Shown piece after piece: positions 3,961 to 21,565 of a stretch of DNA of 64,000 bases. The stretch's first letter is position 1. Every line of letters starts with the position of its first letter. This stretch comes from Candidatus Nitrotoga sp. 1052 (GTDB lineage Bacteria > Pseudomonadota > Gammaproteobacteria > Burkholderiales > Gallionellaceae), in the NCBI RefSeq assembly GCF_927312905.1, contig NZ_CAKMHQ010000010.1, positions 1 to 64,000 of the forward strand, in the 5' to 3' direction. A model generated the notes under the pieces. That model made no database searches. It was not told the origin of the DNA and worked only from the letters and a program-made list of their open reading frames with translations. The position numbers and the translations under genes are program-made.

Positions 3961-4745
3961 AATTGTTTTCACGCGTGAGAGGCCTGAGCTTTTTTCTGCT
4001 TGCTTTAAGTATGGCAGGATGTGTTGCGCAATCCGATAGTGGATACGGCAGTAAGCCGCAGCAAAATATTTCGCGGGAAGAGTCCAGCGCCAGAATACAT
4101 ACTGAATTGGCTGCACAATATTATGACCGTGGACAACTTGGGGTGGCATTAGAAGAGCTGTCTTTGGCTCTACAGTCTAAACCCGACTACGCACCGGCTT
4201 ACAACGTGCGCGGCCTTGTGCGCATGGCTTTGCATGAAGATCAGCAGGCAGATGAGGATTTTCAGCATAGCTTGCGTTTGGATAGCACCGATTCAGATGC
4301 ACATAATAATTATGGCTGGTTTCTTTGTAAGCGAGGTAAGGAACTGGATTCCATCAAACACTTCATGGCAGCACTAAAGAATCCACTTTACTCTACTCCG
4401 GGGAAAGCTTATTTGAATGCAGGCTTGTGCTCTATGAAGGCTGGCAATGCGAAAGACGCTGAGGAGTTTTTGCAAAAAGCGCTAACTGTCCAACACAATA
4501 TGCCGGAAGCACTGCTGGGCCTGGCCAATCTGTACTTTACTAAAGCGGATTATGCGGGTGCGAAATCCTATTTCATGCTCTTTAAACGGAACAACGTATC
4601 CCCTTTGACAGCTGAAAACCTATGGCTGGCAGTGCGCATTGAACGTAAGTTGGGTGATAGAACCGCGGAAAATAGCTATGCGATGCAATTGCGTAAAAAT
4701 TTTCCTGATGCGCGTGAAACTCAGCTAATGTTGTACAGGCAATAG
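3957..4745 (+). CDS. pilW: Type IV pilus biogenesis/stability lipoprotein PilW (PilF-like)
   Basis: Outer-membrane lipoprotein with tetratricopeptide repeats that helps secretin (PilQ) assembly and pilus stability. The N-terminus is a lipoprotein signal ending in the lipobox SMAGC near residue 21. The body, about residues 45-240, is built of TPR units, for example [20 protein letters not shown] and the following [12 protein letters not shown]. The 262-residue length fits the family. It overlaps rlmN by four bases and rodZ by one base. The position between rlmN and rodZ is the conserved pilW/pilF site in beta- and gammaproteobacteria. No other pilus gene is in the window. Confidence 0.9.
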
Positions 4746-5590
4746 TGGATAATTCGCCGGAAAATACTTTAGGCAATGCCTCCAGCAGCGTCGAGGTGCG
4801 GCCGCTCAGTGTGGGTGCCGCGCTGCGTGAAGCACGCGAGCAACTCGGGCTGAGCGTTGCTGATGTTGAAAGTCGTCTTAAGTTTGCATCACGCCAAATT
4901 GAGGCATTGGAGGCGGACAATTTTTCTCGTCTGCCGGAAATTTCCTTTGTGCGCCGCTTCGTACGCAGTTATGCCAAGCTATTGCAATTGGACCCTGCTC
5001 CCTTGCTCGCATCACTGCCAATAGATCCAGAGCAGCCCTCGCTGCATACTGCAAGCATTGCGATTGAAGTGCCGTTCCCAAATACCTACGCGACGCGCAG
5101 GCTCAAGATTATCTGGTTGGCGACCGGTCTTGTTGTTGTAGTCGCGATCATATTGGTACTTATTGTCTGGTTGAACCGTAGCAAGCCGACTATGCCGCAG
5201 GCTACGGTGGAAAAAATTGAGTTGCCAGCCGTCATGCCTACCCCCGCTTCTGTGGTGATAGCAGTACCGTCGCCTGATGCGCTCGTTGTGCCCCCGGAAG
5301 CCCCCGCTGCTGCTAAAGTTATAAAGTCAGAATCAAACAGCGCATCCAAGCAATCCGCCTCTATCCGACTGACGTTTGATGCAGAGTCTTGGGTGAAAGT
5401 GACGGACAATGACGGCAAGATATTGCTGTCACAACTTAATTCGAGCGGCAGCGAACAACATCTGAAAGGCAGGCCACCGTTTTCCGTGGTTATTGGTAAT
5501 ATCAGCGGAGTGCGTCTATATTATCAAGGGAAGCTTGTTGAACTCGCGCCTTTTTACAATGGCGAAATCGCGCGCCTCACGTTGGAGTAG
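4745..5590 (+). CDS. rodZ: Cytoskeletal/cell-shape protein RodZ (HTH plus DUF4115)
   Basis: Bitopic membrane protein that links MreB to the elongasome and sets rod shape. The order of parts is a cytoplasmic Cro-like HTH (about residues 22-90, with [18 protein letters not shown]), a single membrane segment near residues 120-145, a Pro/Ala/Val-rich periplasmic linker, and a C-terminal DUF4115 beta domain (about 200-281). The start is GTG at 4745, sharing one base with the pilW stop. ispG follows two bases after the stop. The context rlmN-pilW-rodZ-ispG is the classical one, so the HTH gene is not a transcription regulator. Confidence 0.93.
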
Positions 5591-5592
5591 AT

Positions 5593-6867
5593 ATGAGTCA
5601 GCATCCCATTCCGCGTCGTACGACGCAACGTGTCATGGTGGGTAATATCGCTATAGGTGGTGGTGCCCCTATCGTTGTGCAGTCCATGACTAATACTGAT
5701 ACCGTGGATGCCGTAGGTACCGCGCGCCAAGTGTTTGAACTTGCACAAGCTGGTTCCGAGTTAGTGCGAATTACTGTCAATACCGCCGAAGCCGCCGCAC
5801 AGGTGCCCCGCATTCGCGAACTGCTCGACCAAATGGACTGTAATGTGCCCTTGGTGGGCGATTTTCATTACAACGGCCATCGTTTGTTAACAGACTTTCC
5901 GGAATGTGCCCAAACACTGGGAGGATACAGGATTAACCCAGGCAATGTCGGTCGCAACCGCAAGGGTGAAGACCAATTCGCTATGATGATAGATGCTGCC
6001 TGCCGTTATTCTAAGCCTGTGCGTATCGGGGTGAACTGGGGTAGCCTGGATGCTGATTTGATCGTGCGCATGATGGATGAAAACGCTAAATCACCACAGC
6101 CGAAGGAGGCTGCTGCGGTAATGCGAGAAGCGCTCATCGTGTCTGCACTGGATAGCGCTCAGCGCGCCGAGAAACTTGGTTTGCCGCATGATCGAATCGT
6201 GCTGTCATGCAAGGTGAGTGAGGTACAAGGTTTAATCGCGGTATACCGTGAACTAGCACTGCGCTGTGATTATCCGCTGCACTTGGGGTTAACCGAAGCT
6301 GGCATGGGATCCAAAGGTATTGTCGCCTCCACCGCCGCGCTTGCCGTGTTACTGCAGGAAGGGATAGGGGATACCATACGTATTTCTCTGACACCGGAAC
6401 CGGGTGGTGACCGTACGCAGGAGGTAATCGTGGCGCAGGAAATTTTGCAAACGATGGGATTGCGTTCCTTTACGCCTATGGTGATTGCTTGCCCCGGCTG
6501 CGGGCGTACCACCAGCACGGTTTTTCAAGAATTGGCGCAAAGTATTCAGTCTTACTTGCGCGAGCAAATGCCGGTGTGGCGCGAACAATTCAGCGGCGCT
6601 GAGGAAATGACAGTGGCGGTAATGGGTTGCATCGTGAATGGTCCTGGGGAAAGCAAGATGGCCAACATTGGTATCAGTCTGCCGGGCAGTAACGAGCATC
6701 CTGCAGCACCGGTATATGTGGATGGTCAAAAAGTTGTTACTTTACGTGGTGACAATATTGCCAACGAGTTCAAGCAGATCGTAAATGATTACGTGGCGCG
6801 CAACTACGCGCGGCGTGAAGCTGGTCGTCCCCATCCTGAAACCATACCGATCCATGTAATAAATTGA
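5593..6867 (+). CDS. ispG: 4-hydroxy-3-methylbut-2-en-1-yl diphosphate synthase
   Basis: Penultimate enzyme of the non-mevalonate (MEP) isoprenoid pathway. It reductively converts MEcPP to HMBPP with a 4Fe-4S cluster. The cluster cysteines are seen in ACPGCGRTT and in [10 protein letters not shown] toward the C-terminus. The N-terminal TIM-barrel half shows VQSMTNTDT and GDFHYNGH. At 424 residues it is the long-barrel, two-domain proteobacterial form without the extra plant-type insert. It starts two bases after rodZ and is clearly co-transcribed. hisS follows after about 100 bases. Confidence 0.97.
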
Positions 6868-15879: not shown

Positions 15880-16503
15880 ATGAAATTTGTTACTAAATTA
15901 CCGCTGGCATTGGCATTGATCGTGGGCAGCATCACTAGTCCAGTTTTTGCAGAAGCTGAGCATCACGCAGGAAAAGAAGATGGGCATCACGCGGGGAAGG
16001 TGGAGAAAAAGCTTCGTGCAGAAGCGATCATCGCCGGTCCGGGCATTACCGGAGAAGCTCATCTGTATGAGGAACACGATGGGCTCGTCAGAATCAAGAT
16101 GATGGTACAAGGTACGCCTGACAGCAAGTTAACGCCCGGGCGACACGCGGTTCACATCCACGAAACAGGGGCATGCGATCCGTTCACGGCGGCAAAAGGC
16201 CATTACGATGGCAATATCGATCCGCAGGTCAACCCGGAGGCGAATGTCAGTCCAGGCCTTGGAAATCACCCCTATCATTTAGGTGATCTGTCGAATCTTG
16301 TGGTTGATGAGAACCGCAAAGGAACGTTGTATGCCATCACGAGCCGGGTCACCCTTACTCCCGGATTGACAACCCTTTTCGATGCGGATGGAAGTGCGTT
16401 TATTATTCATGGACTTGAAGACAAATTCCTTCCTGATCCTCCGACAAAAGATGCCCCAGGTGGCCCCAGGATTGCATGTGGGGTGATTGTTCTGAAAAAG
16501 TAA
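15880..16503 (+). CDS. sodC: Superoxide dismutase [Cu-Zn], periplasmic
   Basis: Dismutates superoxide in the periplasm with a Cu/Zn centre. A signal peptide ends at VFAEA (about residue 25), followed by a His-rich stretch (HHAGKEDGHHAGK) that may bind metal. Cu/Zn ligands are seen in AVHIHETGAC, in NHPYHLGDLSNL and in AFIIHGLEDKF. The second Cys for the structural disulfide is in GGPRIACGVI. The 207 residues fit a bacterial SodC with an N-terminal extension. AGGAG lies before ATG 15880. It lies between cytochrome, DsrE, peroxidase and catalase genes, an oxidative-stress neighbourhood. Confidence 0.9.
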   Translation: MKFVTKLPLALALIVGSITSPVFAEAEHHAGKEDGHHAGKVEKKLRAEAIIAGPGITGEAHLYEEHDGLVRIKMMVQGTPDSKLTPGRHAVHIHETGACDPFTAAKGHYDGNIDPQVNPEANVSPGLGNHPYHLGDLSNLVVDENRKGTLYAITSRVTLTPGLTTLFDADGSAFIIHGLEDKFLPDPPTKDAPGGPRIACGVIVLKK

Positions 16504-17043: not shown

Positions 17044-17103
17044 GGGTAGCTTATGGCCGTAATCAGTTGCGCCACGATCAGTCGATTTTTTAGGAGATTA
17101 CCG

Positions 17104-18105
17104 ATGCTAATTCGAGCATTAGTCATATCACTGCTATCTATTGGATCCAGTTACGCCGTCCCTGCAATCGCGCATGCTGCTAATGAACCTATCCAACCAA
17201 TCGAGGACGCCAAGCCAAAGAATTCAGACATGGTTGAACTAGGCAAGATGCTTTTTTTCGATCCGCGTTTATCGAAGTCTGGATTCATTTCTTGTAATTC
17301 CTGTCACAACTTGAGCATGGGCGGCACGGATAATCTGCAAACATCCATTGGCCATAATTGGCAGCAGGGGCCGATCAATTCGCCAACAGTATTGAACTCC
17401 AGCATGAACTTGGCTCAGTTCTGGGATGGTCGCGCCAAGGATCTGAAGGAGCAGGCGGGTGGCCCCATCGCCAACCCCAAAGAGATGGCATTTACCCATG
17501 AACTGGCAGTGGATGTATTACGCTCCATTCCCCAGTACCGAGCCCGCTTCCAGCAATTGTTTGGCGCAGATAAAATCGATATCGGTATGGTAACCGCCGC
17601 GATTGCGGCGTTCGAAGAAACCTTGGTTACGCCTGACTCTCGTTTCGATAAATGGCTCAAGGGCGACAAGCTAGCTTTGAGCCAAACTGAACTGGAGGGT
17701 TACAAGCTATTCAAGGAAAGTGGATGCACGGGTTGCCACAATGGCGCTACTGTAGGCGGTGGGTCATTCCAGAAATTTGGAATCTATGAGGCCTACAAGA
17801 CTACGAACAAGGCTGCAGGCAGGTCCGCTGTAACGGGCAGGGATGCCGACCGCTTCAAGTTCAAAGTACCCAACCTCCGAAACGTGGAGCTAACTTATCC
17901 TTATTTTCATGATGGTGCCGCTGAGACCTTGGAAGACGCGGTGGACACCATGGGTAGGCTGCAGCTGGGACGCAAGTTCACCAAGGAAGAAAATGCCAAG
18001 ATCGTGGCGTTCTTAAAGTCGCTGACCGGTAAGCAGCCCGAGTTCACGTTACCAATCCTTCCCCCTTCAACTAAAGAGACGCCGAAACCTAAACCCTTTG
18101 GATAA
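17104..18105 (+). CDS. Di-heme cytochrome-c peroxidase (CcpA/MauG family)
   Basis: Periplasmic enzyme that reduces H2O2 using electrons from small c-type cytochromes. Two heme sites are seen, CNSCH and CTGCH, with the family segments LGKMLFFDPRLSKSG, SPTVLNSS and WDGRAKDLKEQ. The C-terminal PNLRNVELTYPYFHDG also matches. I chose ATG 17104 because AGGAG lies seven bases upstream and it gives a clean signal peptide (MLIRALVISLLSIGSSYA). The longer frame from 17053 lacks a ribosome site. The 333-residue length is typical. The catalase gene follows after 70 bases, so the two may form a peroxide-defence pair. Confidence 0.93.
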   Translation: MLIRALVISLLSIGSSYAVPAIAHAANEPIQPIEDAKPKNSDMVELGKMLFFDPRLSKSGFISCNSCHNLSMGGTDNLQTSIGHNWQQGPINSPTVLNSSMNLAQFWDGRAKDLKEQAGGPIANPKEMAFTHELAVDVLRSIPQYRARFQQLFGADKIDIGMVTAAIAAFEETLVTPDSRFDKWLKGDKLALSQTELEGYKLFKESGCTGCHNGATVGGGSFQKFGIYEAYKTTNKAAGRSAVTGRDADRFKFKVPNLRNVELTYPYFHDGAAETLEDAVDTMGRLQLGRKFTKEENAKIVAFLKSLTGKQPEFTLPILPPSTKETPKPKPFG

Positions 18106-18175
18106 ATACAGATAAGTGGAGCGCTACAATTTATTTTGTATCGCTCCAATTCGCAATAATAATAAGGAGTGTGCA

Positions 18176-19633
18176 ATGAGTGACAAAAAGAAACTGACCA
18201 CCAACGCAGGATGTCCTGTAGTCGATAACCAGAACGTGATGACCGCAGGTCCGCGGGGACCACAGCTTATGCAGGATGTCTGGTTCTTGGAGAAACTTGC
18301 TCACTTTGATCGCGAAGTCATCCCCGAACGGCGCATGCATGCAAAAGGTTCCGGCGCCTATGGCACCTTCACCGTCACCAGTGATATCACTAAATTCACC
18401 CGGGCGAAAATCTTCTCACAAGTGGGCAAGAAGACCGATTTGTTCGTCCGTTTTTCCACCGTAGCCGGTGAGCGGGGCGCCGCTGACGCCGAGCGCGATA
18501 TTCGCGGCTTTGCCATCAAGTTCTACACCGAGGAAGGGAACTGGGACCTGGTTGGTAACAACACACCTGTATTCTTTCTGCGGGACCCGCTGAAATTTCC
18601 TGATCTGAACCATGCTGTAAAACGCGACCCGCGCACCAATATGCGCAGCGCAAAGAACAACTGGGATTTCTGGACACTGCTGCCGGAGGCGCTGCACCAA
18701 ATCACCGTGGTAATGAGCGATCGCGGCATTCCCGCCACCTATCGTCATATGCACGGCTTTGGCAGCCACACTTTCAGTTTTATTAATGCGGATAACGAGC
18801 GTTACTGGGTCAAATTCCACCTCAAATCGCAGCAGGGTATCAAGAATCTCACCGATGCCGAGGCCGAGGCCCTGATTGGCAAGGATCGCGAAAGCCACCA
18901 GCGCGACCTGTATGAAGCCATTGAGCGTGGTGATTTCCCGAAATGGAATATGTGCGTGCAGGTCATGCCAGAAGCTGACGCCGCGAAGGTGCCCTATCAC
19001 CCTTTCGACCTAACCAAAATCTGGCCGCACAAGGATTATCCGCTTATTGACGTTGGCGTACTGGAACTGAACCGCAACCCCGAGAACTACTTCGCCGAAG
19101 TGGAGCAGGTTGCCTTCAACCCTGCCAATGTGCCGCCCGGCATCAGTTTTTCGCCGGACAAGATGCTGCAAGGGCGAATTTTCTCCTACGGTGATGCACA
19201 GCGTTATCGCCTGGGCGTTAACCACCAACTGATTCCGGTCAACGCCGCCCGCTGCCCGGTTCACAGTTCGCATCGTGATGGTGCCATGCGCGTCGATGGT
19301 AACCACGGCAGCACGCTGGGCTATGAACCAAACAGTTACGGCGAATGGCAGGAGCAGCCGGATTTTGCCGAGCCGCCGCTAAGCTTGGAGGGCGCGGCTG
19401 ACCACTGGGATCATCGCGAAGATACAAATTACTACTCTCAGCCCGGCGCACTATTTCGCCTAATGACGTCGGCTCAGCAACAGATATTGTTCGAGAACAC
19501 CGCGCGTTCCATTGGTGCTGCGCCACGCGAGATTCATATTCGCCATATTGGAAACTGCTTGAAAGCTGATCCGGCATATGGCGAAGGGGTTGCTATTGCA
19601 CTAGGCATCCCACTGAGTGGAGTTTTGAAATAA
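18176..19633 (+). CDS. katA: Monofunctional heme catalase (small-subunit, clade 3)
   Basis: Disproportionates H2O2 in the cytoplasm. Start ATG 18176 has AAGGAG seven bases upstream, and a longer frame from 18116 is rejected. Family blocks are [20 protein letters not shown] with the catalytic His, [20 protein letters not shown], and the distal Asn in [11 protein letters not shown]. The heme-ligand block is [14 protein letters not shown] with the proximal Tyr. The 485 residues match clade 3 catalases such as KatA. Codon use and GC resemble the core genes. It follows the di-heme peroxidase gene. Confidence 0.95.
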
Positions 19634-19755: not shown

Positions 19756-20268
19756 ATGAACAAATTATTTATGGCATTGTTTTTGTTATTAACGGGGTGC
19801 GTTGGAATTCCTGAAAATGTGAAACCCGTTGAAAATTTCAAGTTAGAGAACTATCTCGGCAAGTGGTATGAAATTGCGAGGCTGGATCACTCATTTGAAC
19901 GAGGTTTATCTCGAGTTACAGCAGATTATAGTTTACGAGATGATGGCGGTTTGAAAGTAATAAATCGTGGTTATTCTGTAAAAGAAAATAAGTGGAAAGA
20001 AGCCGAAGGAAAGGCCTATTTCGTAAGGGGGTCGGATCAGGGTTACTTGAAAGTTTCATTCTTTGGTCCATTCTATGGTTCTTATATCGTGTTTGAACTT
20101 GACCATGAAAATTATCAATATTCACTCGTATCCGGTCCTGACAAATCTTATTTTTGGATTCTGGCAAGAACGCCACAAATAAATGAAAATATTAAAAATG
20201 TTCTTATAGCAAAAGCTGCAGCATTGGGGTTTGACACGAGCAAATTGATACATGTCAATAACGATTAA
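19756..20268 (+). CDS. blc: Outer-membrane lipocalin (Blc-like lipoprotein)
   Basis: Small beta-barrel lipoprotein that binds lipids at the outer membrane and is usually stress-induced. The lipobox LLTGC is at about residue 15. The lipocalin GxW motif occurs as LGKWYEIARLDHSFERGL, and the C-terminal block YSLVSGPDKSYFWILARTP is the Blc signature. The 170 residues are typical. The gene is clearly more AT-rich than the catalase before it, which suggests separate, possibly horizontal, origin. No operon partner is evident. Confidence 0.9.
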   Translation: MNKLFMALFLLLTGCVGIPENVKPVENFKLENYLGKWYEIARLDHSFERGLSRVTADYSLRDDGGLKVINRGYSVKENKWKEAEGKAYFVRGSDQGYLKVSFFGPFYGSYIVFELDHENYQYSLVSGPDKSYFWILARTPQINENIKNVLIAKAAALGFDTSKLIHVNND

Positions 20269-20459
20269 TCAACTATTACGGGAAAAAGCTATGTCGTAAT
20301 TGCCTGTTGAATTTGGTATTCAACGGGCATAAAGTGTTGTCACGGAGGTGTGTATCGTGAAAGCGACTCAATTGAGGGGTAGCCACAGGCATTTTTTATG
20401 AATTTGCTTTTAGATAACTAGAATCATAAAAAAATAGTTTTTTTGTTGTTCGCCCTTTT

Positions 20460-20699
20460 TATGCGAAATCCAAGCTATGTACCGATGGTGCAGCAGCGTC
20501 CAAGTTGATCGCCCTGTACGTGGGGATTGCTCATCGTCCCGTCAATGTTGCCGCAGGGAAGCAGGTGGTCGGCGGCATCTATCATATTCAGAACGTCAAT
20601 ACCTATGACAGCCGACTTAAACAATGGATGGCGCGATTTAATGGTGTAACCACGCATTATCTCGAAAGTTATCCTGAACAGAGGAGGGGCACACAATGA
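20460..20699 (+). pseudogene. IS1595-family transposase remnant (C-terminal end)
   Basis: Frame from about 20463 reads AKSKLCTDGAAASKLIALYV, then AHRPVNVAAGKQVVGGIYHI, QNVNTYDSRLKQWMARFNGV and THYLESY. This is the C-terminal end of ISXO2-like (IS1595) DDE transposases, including the LCTDG Asp block and the VYHIQNVN-Y-SRLK-WM-RF-GV end. The N-terminal two thirds are absent. The last codons and stop overlap the start of the next gene by four bases, so the insertion relic now supplies that gene's 5' leader. Confidence 0.75.
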
Positions 20700-21565
20700 T
20701 TAGACTGACTTATGCCAGCACTGCAAACCAAGAATGGAGCCCAGAGGATCTGTTAGAGCTGTTAAGACAATCTCGGACAAATAATGGTGCCAAAAATATA
20801 ACCGGAATTCTCCTCTATTCAAATGGAACTTTTTTTCAAGTTTTGGAGGGCGAAGAGGCAACCGTTGAAAACTTGTATAGGACAATAGAAAAAGATCCGC
20901 GTCACAAAAATTGCACGCTCATTGAAAAGCTAAATATAACTGAACGCGCATTCCCATATTGGAGTATGGGCTTTGAAAAAATAGATCCCAAAGAATTAAG
21001 AAAAATGGAAGGGCTTAATAACTTCTTTGAACATGATTTTACTCCTGCCGGTTTTGCTTCGCATAAAAACATTATTGGTCCTTTATTGACCCACTTACGA
21101 AGCAAACTTGTAAAACAAGTGAGCACCGAAAGTCATGAAGAGCTTCCGATGGAGCATGATGATCCATTTATAAAATACTTACACCGTACTATACGAATAG
21201 GCGTTAAGTTTTTGTCCATATTAATGGTTGTTGTCATCCTGTTGAGTATTGCTGATGTGCTTTATATTATCTGGTTAAAAATTAGTAACTCGCCGCATTT
21301 TCTGATGACCACAAATGACCTGCTGGAAACATTTGGGTCCTTTTTGGCTGTATTGATAGCTATCGAAATTTTCATAAATATAACTATATACATCAGGAGT
21401 GATGTAATTCCAGTCAAACTGGTTGTAGCCACTGCGTTGATGGCCATTTCGAGAAAAGTTATCGTTTTTGATTATAAAAACTTGGATCCCGAATATGTAA
21501 GTGCTTCAGCCTTGGTGCTGGTCGCTCTGGGTATCACCTATATGCTGGTTAAAAAAAATGACTAG
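20696..21565 (+). CDS. BLUF blue-light receptor fused to a PsiE-like membrane domain
   Basis: N-terminal BLUF domain (residues 1-95) that should bind flavin and sense blue light. The key residues fall at the spacing of known BLUF proteins: Tyr6, Asn30, Gln48 (in FFQVLEGE), Trp89 and Met91 (in YWSMGF). After a linker (about 100-160) comes a membrane region with four predicted helices (about 168-192, 210-232, 241-262, 268-284). It resembles PsiE, the phosphate-starvation-inducible protein of unknown function: FGSFLAVLIAIEI, then VVATALMAISRKVIVFD and LVLVALGITYMLV. There is no EAL, GGDEF or other usual output. A GAGGAGGGG site precedes ATG 20696. The gene is AT-rich and sits alone. Confidence 0.85.
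   Translation: MIRLTYASTANQEWSPEDLLELLRQSRTNNGAKNITGILLYSNGTFFQVLEGEEATVENLYRTIEKDPRHKNCTLIEKLNITERAFPYWSMGFEKIDPKELRKMEGLNNFFEHDFTPAGFASHKNIIGPLLTHLRSKLVKQVSTESHEELPMEHDDPFIKYLHRTIRIGVKFLSILMVVVILLSIADVLYIIWLKISNSPHFLMTTNDLLETFGSFLAVLIAIEIFINITIYIRSDVIPVKLVVATALMAISRKVIVFDYKNLDPEYVSASALVLVALGITYMLVKKND

Follow-up and report, generated by a model that had tools for sequence, protein, structure and literature searches.

Comparison with described systems

The outputs of BLUF photoreceptors named in two reviews, as excerpted, are soluble (PMC4844311; PMC8846402). BLUF-EAL proteins (BlrP1) and BLUF photoactivated adenylyl cyclases carry BLUF and output on one chain (PMC8846402, in excerpt), and so does the BLUF-PsiE fusion protein of Candidatus Nitrotoga sp. 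1052 described here. However, the former have a soluble enzyme as output, whereas the fusion has a predicted four-helix membrane domain without known catalysis. The short BLUF photoreceptors (PixD/Tll0078, Slr1694, BlrB) have the same BLUF domain and the same flavin-site residues as the fusion, which differs from them by a PsiE match of 119 residues that follows BLUF. We take PixD and BlrB to be names of short BLUF photoreceptors, a group in which we know of no membrane output domain.

On the PsiE side, the E. coli protein (psiE, b4030) resembles the fusion by its PF06146 match and its core of Glu, Pro, Arg and Asp, but it is unfused and has 136 aa, whereas the subfamily of the fusion has a HEELP-type lead-in. 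Since we know of no activity of PsiE, the output of the fusion is undefined. The oxidative stress module of a transmissible stress island (tLST/LHR) includes a PsiE-like protein, Orf14; this PsiE relative occurs there with KefB, Trx, the HtpX-like Orf15 and, depending on the variant, FtsH (PMC8290217, in excerpt). We liken it to the fusion by description: Orf14 is less than 30% alike to PsiE, and the excerpt of PMC8290217 holds no link to BLUF or light. Proteomics of E. coli has detected the PsiE of this island (PMC7010813, in excerpt).

Light responses of other bacteria offer further points of comparison. In Pseudomonas mendocina, a short LOV protein acts via a class II LitR, and the Pseudomonas LitR/photolyase clusters comprise LitR, PhrB, a short-chain dehydrogenase, an FAD oxidoreductase, a fatty-acid gene and short LOV (PMC9758184, in excerpt). 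RudS is often found in light-responsive operons (PMC11417400, in excerpt). The term PsiE is absent from the main texts of PMC9758184 and PMC11417400, and BLUF from that of the latter, on RudS. As for nitrifiers, Nitrotoga CP45 is reported to be photosensitive, as cited in PMC11220445, and photoinhibition is discussed in PMC9239080 (both in excerpt). Among the matches listed from the open-licence literature, we found no paper on a BLUF-PsiE architecture; this literature gave none on BLUF together with Nitrotoga, and one paper that mentions both BLUF and PsiE, as excerpted, does so in E. coli gene lists.

A single gene encodes BLUF and PsiE

The fusion gene lies in the window, a stretch of 64,000 nucleotides of one Candidatus Nitrotoga sp. 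1052 contig. Its parts are the following.

20682..20687, + strand: ribosome site AGGAGG, 8 bases 5' of the ATG, read from the sequence
20696..21565, + strand: BLUF-PsiE fusion gene, 289 aa (open frame, Pfam and recurrence)
20696..20971, + strand: BLUF domain, residues 1-92 (Pfam PF04940, E 3.8e-32; PDB matches; conserved flavin-site residues)
20972..21202, + strand: linker, residues 93-169 (predicted helix 124-143; invariant HEELP 147-151)
21203..21559, + strand: PsiE domain, residues 170-288 (PF06146, E 1.2e-33; four predicted membrane helices; core Glu224, Pro239, Arg253 and Asp259)

The frame runs uninterrupted from the ATG at 20696 to the stop at 21565 (289 codons), with AGGAGG ahead of it, in agreement with the preliminary description of one continuous frame behind one ribosome site. 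Both Pfam matches are far above the curated cut-offs (110.7 bits against 25 for BLUF at residues 1-92, and 116.3 bits against 23.9 for PsiE). The second half, where residues 160-287 had been likened to PsiE, does match the profile, at residues 170-288. With this layout conserved in relatives, the proposed joining of BLUF to PsiE in one protein holds. Profile searches of the whole genome (G000, 3.23 Mb) gave matches at the same two places of the fusion gene; the genome has one BLUF match and two PsiE matches, namely the fusion and one standalone PsiE in a 154-codon open frame. An NCBIfam search of the fusion protein returned no match, and Pfam revealed neither an EAL nor a cyclase domain in it. 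The protein is 96% identical to that of a MAG labelled CP45 (L066) and 93% identical to those of L035 and L036.

Distribution and history of the fusion

The fusion is real and conserved. We collected 65 distinct fusion sequences, the window's included (three are partial: L040, L061 and L113), from several bacterial groups. A match spanning both domains was found in 9 of the 19 genomes of the window's genus, its own counted and one (G014) with the gene split over two contigs; the named relatives in this genus are Candidatus Nitrotoga. The other 130 genomes of that survey gave no open-frame match spanning both domains; in G050, a match over residues 3-199 runs through seven stops. Among Methylococcales, a sample of a larger group, 49 of 301 genomes had a match spanning both domains (one stops at residue 264, and another has an in-frame TGA), and the fusion is carried by Methylobacter tundripaludum SV96 (L048). 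Across Pseudomonadota, the fusion was found in 6 of 398 genomes, namely that of the window and five from a single family in another class; a further genome of that family (G631) has a frame-split copy. No match spanning both domains was found in the phyla of L071 and L070 (respectively, 247 and 246 genomes). Where hosts are named, most are nitrite oxidisers or methanotrophs.

Among the 71 plasmid records with any match, one carries the fusion: pTs485 of Ca. Thiodictyon syntrophicum, a purple sulfur bacterium. This complete record lies beyond the 65 sequences; its protein is 46% identical over residues 1-288 and is named in the plasmid table as PsiE family protein only. Pfam found both domains in it and in the six other divergent members tested. 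An error of sequencing or assembly that joined two genes, raised in the preliminary description as a way in which the fusion could be spurious, was rejected because so many distinct fusions are known, from isolates and from MAGs, in addition to the complete plasmid record; its probability is practically nil.

A genome may hold two copies: in L045, two BLUF-PsiE genes (1019-1885 and 4733-5596) lie 2.8 kb apart, the second encoding a protein 64% identical to that of the window. A phage origin was also considered and rejected: phage records gave two matches, both to the BLUF half only, and the scan of viral_contigs gave no relative of the fusion.

Both quick trees place Nitrotoga among the Methylococcales fusions, in a group with Crenothrix (L064) and a Methylococcaceae MAG (L039); the SH-aLRT values are 91 (PsiE tree) and 84 (BLUF tree), both under the starred level. 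This suggests that the fusion passed from methanotrophs to Nitrotoga by transfer. The label of fusion changes 3 times on the PsiE tree and 6 times on the BLUF tree, one of the latter being the frame-split L129, wrongly labelled unfused. A single clade of fusions was not rejected on PsiE (p 0.73) and was borderline rejected on BLUF (p 0.0445), in a test made without rows L129, L027, L028, L033 and the second BLUF of L057, the Thiodictyon protein having been added beforehand. The fusion may therefore have arisen repeatedly, or domains may have been swapped.

The BLUF half

The five key flavin-site residues of the preliminary description (Tyr6, Asn30, Gln48, Trp89 and Met91) are all present in the window protein at the positions given, and they are nearly invariant in the 65 fusions. 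Gaps aside, Tyr6 is found in 62 of 64 (2 Phe), Asn30 in 64 of 64, Gln48 in 65 of 65, Trp89 in 62 of 65 (3 Phe), and Met91 in 65 of 65. We presume that the Tyr, Asn, Gln and Trp/Met of BLUF have their usual roles in the photoactive flavin site. A search of PDB sequences matched 22 distinct sequences, every one via the BLUF half. The best was Tll0078 (1x0p, E 7.4e-16), with which the flavin-site residues align. The AlphaFold2 model, computed from 38 sequences (mean pLDDT 74, pTM 0.46), has a strand and helix order that is plausible for BLUF, and the mean pLDDT is 76-91 in blocks of residues 1-90.

The range of BLUF outputs considered beforehand (EAL, cyclase or none) was too narrow, even for near relatives. 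Three proteins from the family of the window's genus (L018, L025 and L026) show, by eye, BLUF followed by one C-terminal hydrophobic helix, and are possibly tail-anchored BLUF proteins; in L018, Pfam found BLUF only. Three others (L013, L014 and L015), from two families of the same order, have BLUF and then a long tail, similar among the three.

The PsiE half and its topology

Hydropathy places four membrane segments after a soluble first half, the same as in the AlphaFold2 model, whose last four helices span residues 157-198, 206-234, 240-258 and 265-288. Both predictions thus agree with the four-helix membrane output half that had been proposed. The charge pattern is compatible with a cytoplasmic N terminus, which is also called for because of the BLUF domain, and we infer an N-in/C-in topology for the fusion.

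The core residues align with those of E. coli PsiE and of the genome's own standalone PsiE. Within the fusions, Glu224 is found in 59 of 64 (5 Asp), Pro239 in 59 of 64 (5 Ala), Arg253 in 64 of 64, and Asp259 in 61 of 64 (3 Glu). The core Pro is also replaced in three unfused proteins (L070, L071 and L146). PsiE itself is widespread: of 14 control genomes, which range from E. coli to Methanosarcina, 6 have it.

The linker and the coupling of the two halves

The gap between the two profile matches is mostly of 46, 48 or 49 residues in the 65 fusions, with a range of 41-56 and outliers at 41-42, 50 and 56, and the HEELP segment of the linker is invariant in a 36-row alignment. Among 12 chosen pairs, dN/dS was 0.02-0.18 in BLUF, linker and PsiE alike, wherever computable. 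More precisely, the linker had 0.04-0.18 in 11 of the 12 pairs, one being not computable, and the pair with Ca. N. fabula yielded a value for one of the three parts. Hence, purifying selection acts on BLUF, linker and PsiE. In the AlphaFold2 model, residues 142-154, at the junction, are below pLDDT 50; given this and the pTM of the model, the structure shows no coupling between the domains.

One could argue from the poorly modelled junction and from the spread of the domain gap that the fusion merely couples the expression and location of two independent domains, with no signal passed. We hold this to be very improbable: such a reading sits badly with the low dN/dS of the linker, where computable, with the invariance of HEELP in the 36 rows, and with a layout kept in 65 distinct sequences.

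The neighbourhood of the fusion in Nitrotoga

Four genes upstream of the fusion in the window are relevant here.

15880..16503, + strand: Cu/Zn superoxide dismutase (Pfam; kept in L034, L037, L038 and L066)
17053..18105, + strand: di-haem cytochrome c peroxidase (Pfam; kept in L034, L037, L038 and L066)
18116..19633, + strand: catalase (Pfam; also in L037, L066 and partly L034)
19756..20268, + strand: lipocalin gene (Pfam; clusters)

Superoxide dismutase (SOD), peroxidase and lipocalin recur together in four Nitrotoga-type loci (L034, L037, L038 and L066), while L035 and L036 keep the lipocalin, without SOD or peroxidase. In the locus of Ca. N. fabula (L042), the lipocalin was not found. A lipocalin next to the fusion is also seen in other Nitrotoga, as well as in Crenothrix (L064) and, in another class, in L128. 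It alone, among the light markers defined below, adjoins the fusion in the window. A search of the window's genome for a LitR with a B12 domain gave only a weak MerR match (E 1.3e-4). An association of photolyase with the fusion within the genus was rejected, as matches over the cut-off were found in 5 of 9 genomes with the fusion and in 4 of 10 without it.

Some features of this genome deserve mention in their own right. Its photolyase (L165 6811-8292, contig C99) is in two open frames (130 and 363 codons), as against a single frame of 494 codons in a close relative (L166). Between lipocalin and fusion, at 20390-20695, the window has about 230-300 extra bases, partly common to L066 and absent from the four other Nitrotoga loci aligned. 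A 64-aa frame at 20505-20699, just before the fusion, resembles the end of an IS1595/ISXO2-type transposase, but Pfam gave no match for it. Further away, a 192-aa frame at 13458-14036 matches a 134-residue piece of the C-terminal domain of glucose-6-phosphate dehydrogenase, and is possibly a gene remnant.

Neighbours of the fusion in other bacteria

The neighbours of the fusions comprise genes for LitR, photolyase, RudS, lipocalin, LOV, SOD, MsrPQ-like proteins and FtsH/HflKC; here and below, the names MsrP, MsrQ, PepN, short LOV and HflK/HflC come from Pfam on one or two members or were given by eye. We counted as light markers LitR/MerR (which may take in MerR paralogues), photolyase, RudS, lipocalin and short LOV. 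A light marker was found in the flank of 36 of 65 fusions vs 3 of 36 unfused PsiE, and, with flanks of at least 8 kb only, of 30 of 54 vs 3 of 33; we give no p-value, because the sequences are related, not independent, and flank lengths vary from about 3 to 15 kb. The 36 unfused loci are a chosen part of those known from the Methylococcales survey, namely 39 minus three: the frame-split L129, which is a fusion, and L073 and L074, which duplicate L070 and L071. The 29 fusions without a light marker in their flank include 7 of the 8 Methylobacter Fe-SOD loci and the clade L104-L107 with L118. Since 33 of the 36 unfused PsiE are likewise without a light marker, a role in light would not cover the whole PsiE subfamily.

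Several loci illustrate these associations. In L055, L059 and L069, the fusion and a LitR-type regulator are divergent genes, and for L069 Pfam found MerR and B12-binding domains in this regulator (LitR). L128, from another class, has MerR, photolyase, RudS, an unknown gene, lipocalin, fusion and ferrochelatase, in this order. L149 has photolyase directly upstream of the fusion and RudS downstream. LitR, FtsH, fusion and photolyase lie inside 14 kb in L101, L102 and L116. The 14 kb of L102 and L116 look like a compact light-stress island: LitR, a sigma-70-like gene, HflK/HflC-like genes, FtsH, a small membrane protein and BLUF-PsiE, together with SRPBCC-like, short LOV-like, fatty-acid hydroxylase-like and MsrP/MsrQ-like genes, an SDR and photolyase. 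The small membrane protein directly 5' of BLUF-PsiE (L101 5978-6427, L102 6201-6632; cluster 42, 5 loci) had no Pfam match in its L102 copy.

A box, TNTACANAACTTNNACA, lies between LitR and the fusion in L055, L059 and L069, and elsewhere at the starts of LitR/MerR genes. It was tuned by eye on L055, L059, L069, L101 and L128. A scan of 1.39 Mb that allowed one mismatch, made without loci L001-L033, L072-L080 and L119-L123, gave 3 exact matches and 5 with one mismatch, all 8 of them at a LitR/MerR start; outside the tuning set these are L102, L116 and L127 only, near relatives of it. Five shuffles gave means of 0.2 exact matches and 3.6 with one mismatch. The box may serve LitR alone.

The fusion had been proposed as a clue to what PsiE, then presented as a phosphate-starvation protein, does. 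A clue is present, but the neighbours point to light and oxidative stress. No phosphate genes were seen by eye beside fusions among the maps listed. Regarding unfused PsiE, 17 of the 22 loci of one compared set are beside a gene taken by eye as PepN. A frame by the unfused PsiE of L071 (4704-5228) looks by eye like a Na/phosphate cotransporter. On a plasmid of Azonexus hydrophilus (L169 5965-7341), unfused PsiE lies between nhaR and a mechanosensitive channel gene, neighbours that give a hint of an ion-related role of PsiE.

The oxidative stress genes also bear on what the BLUF flavin senses. AppA senses both light and redox. With this precedent, the flavin of the fusion could sense the redox state of the respiratory chain or quinones, not (or not only) light, and report it to PsiE. 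The named hosts, mostly nitrite oxidisers and methanotrophs, are in line with such a role, as are the catalase, peroxidase and SodC near the fusion in the window and the Fe-SOD that adjoins it in eight Methylobacter loci (identified by Pfam on one and by cluster for the rest). We nevertheless regard redox sensing as improbable, in view of the near invariance of the photoactive residues Tyr6, Gln48, Asn30 and Met91 and of the recurrence of light-linked neighbours (photolyase, LOV, LitR and RudS).

The main rival to a membrane photoreceptor is that PsiE is a membrane anchor only, with BLUF binding a partner (LitR-type, FtsH/HflKC or other) at the membrane in a light-dependent way, much as short BLUF and short LOV proteins act on soluble partners. 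There are precedents in short LOV acting on LitR (PMC9758184, in excerpt) and PapB on PapA (PMC8846402, in excerpt). Potential partners are at hand, as an FtsH relative is found in 9 and LitR in 11 of 57 fusion loci, a set that includes some duplicate loci. The BLUF proteins of the same family that end, by eye, in a single hydrophobic helix fit this reading as well. However, the PsiE half is at least as well conserved as the BLUF half, with more invariant columns in the 36-row alignment, and its Glu, Arg, Asp and mostly Pro are common to fusion and E. coli PsiE. Moreover, unfused PsiE takes the same slot in light clusters without BLUF: in L084, L097 and L098 it lies in a cluster with lipocalin, photolyase, MerR and RudS, the lipocalin being adjacent or one gene off. 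Such conservation and such placement are more than a bare anchor would need, and we consider this rival unlikely.

Proposed function

We think it probable that the fusion is an inner-membrane blue-light receptor, in which BLUF controls PsiE within a photo-oxidative stress response. The cytoplasmic BLUF domain would bind FAD, and blue light would rearrange the hydrogen bonds between Tyr6, Gln48 and the flavin. The change would then reach the four-helix PsiE domain by way of the conserved linker and, before it, the C-terminal cap helices, and would alter the activity of PsiE or its membrane partners. The cell may use this receptor against photo-oxidative damage of its membrane and cytochromes. 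More tentatively, PsiE proteins of this subfamily could be membrane effectors of the photolyase/LitR light-stress response, protecting or re-tuning the respiratory membrane, to which the BLUF fusion would add direct blue-light control at the protein level; this wider proposal is conceivable, if somewhat doubtful.

If the membrane-receptor reading is true, flavin photoreceptors would gain an integral-membrane output. The fusion would be a natural light switch on PsiE, such that a lamp would turn PsiE on or off and make its effects visible. It would also give a hint at how nitrite oxidisers and methanotrophs that are sensitive to light withstand it.
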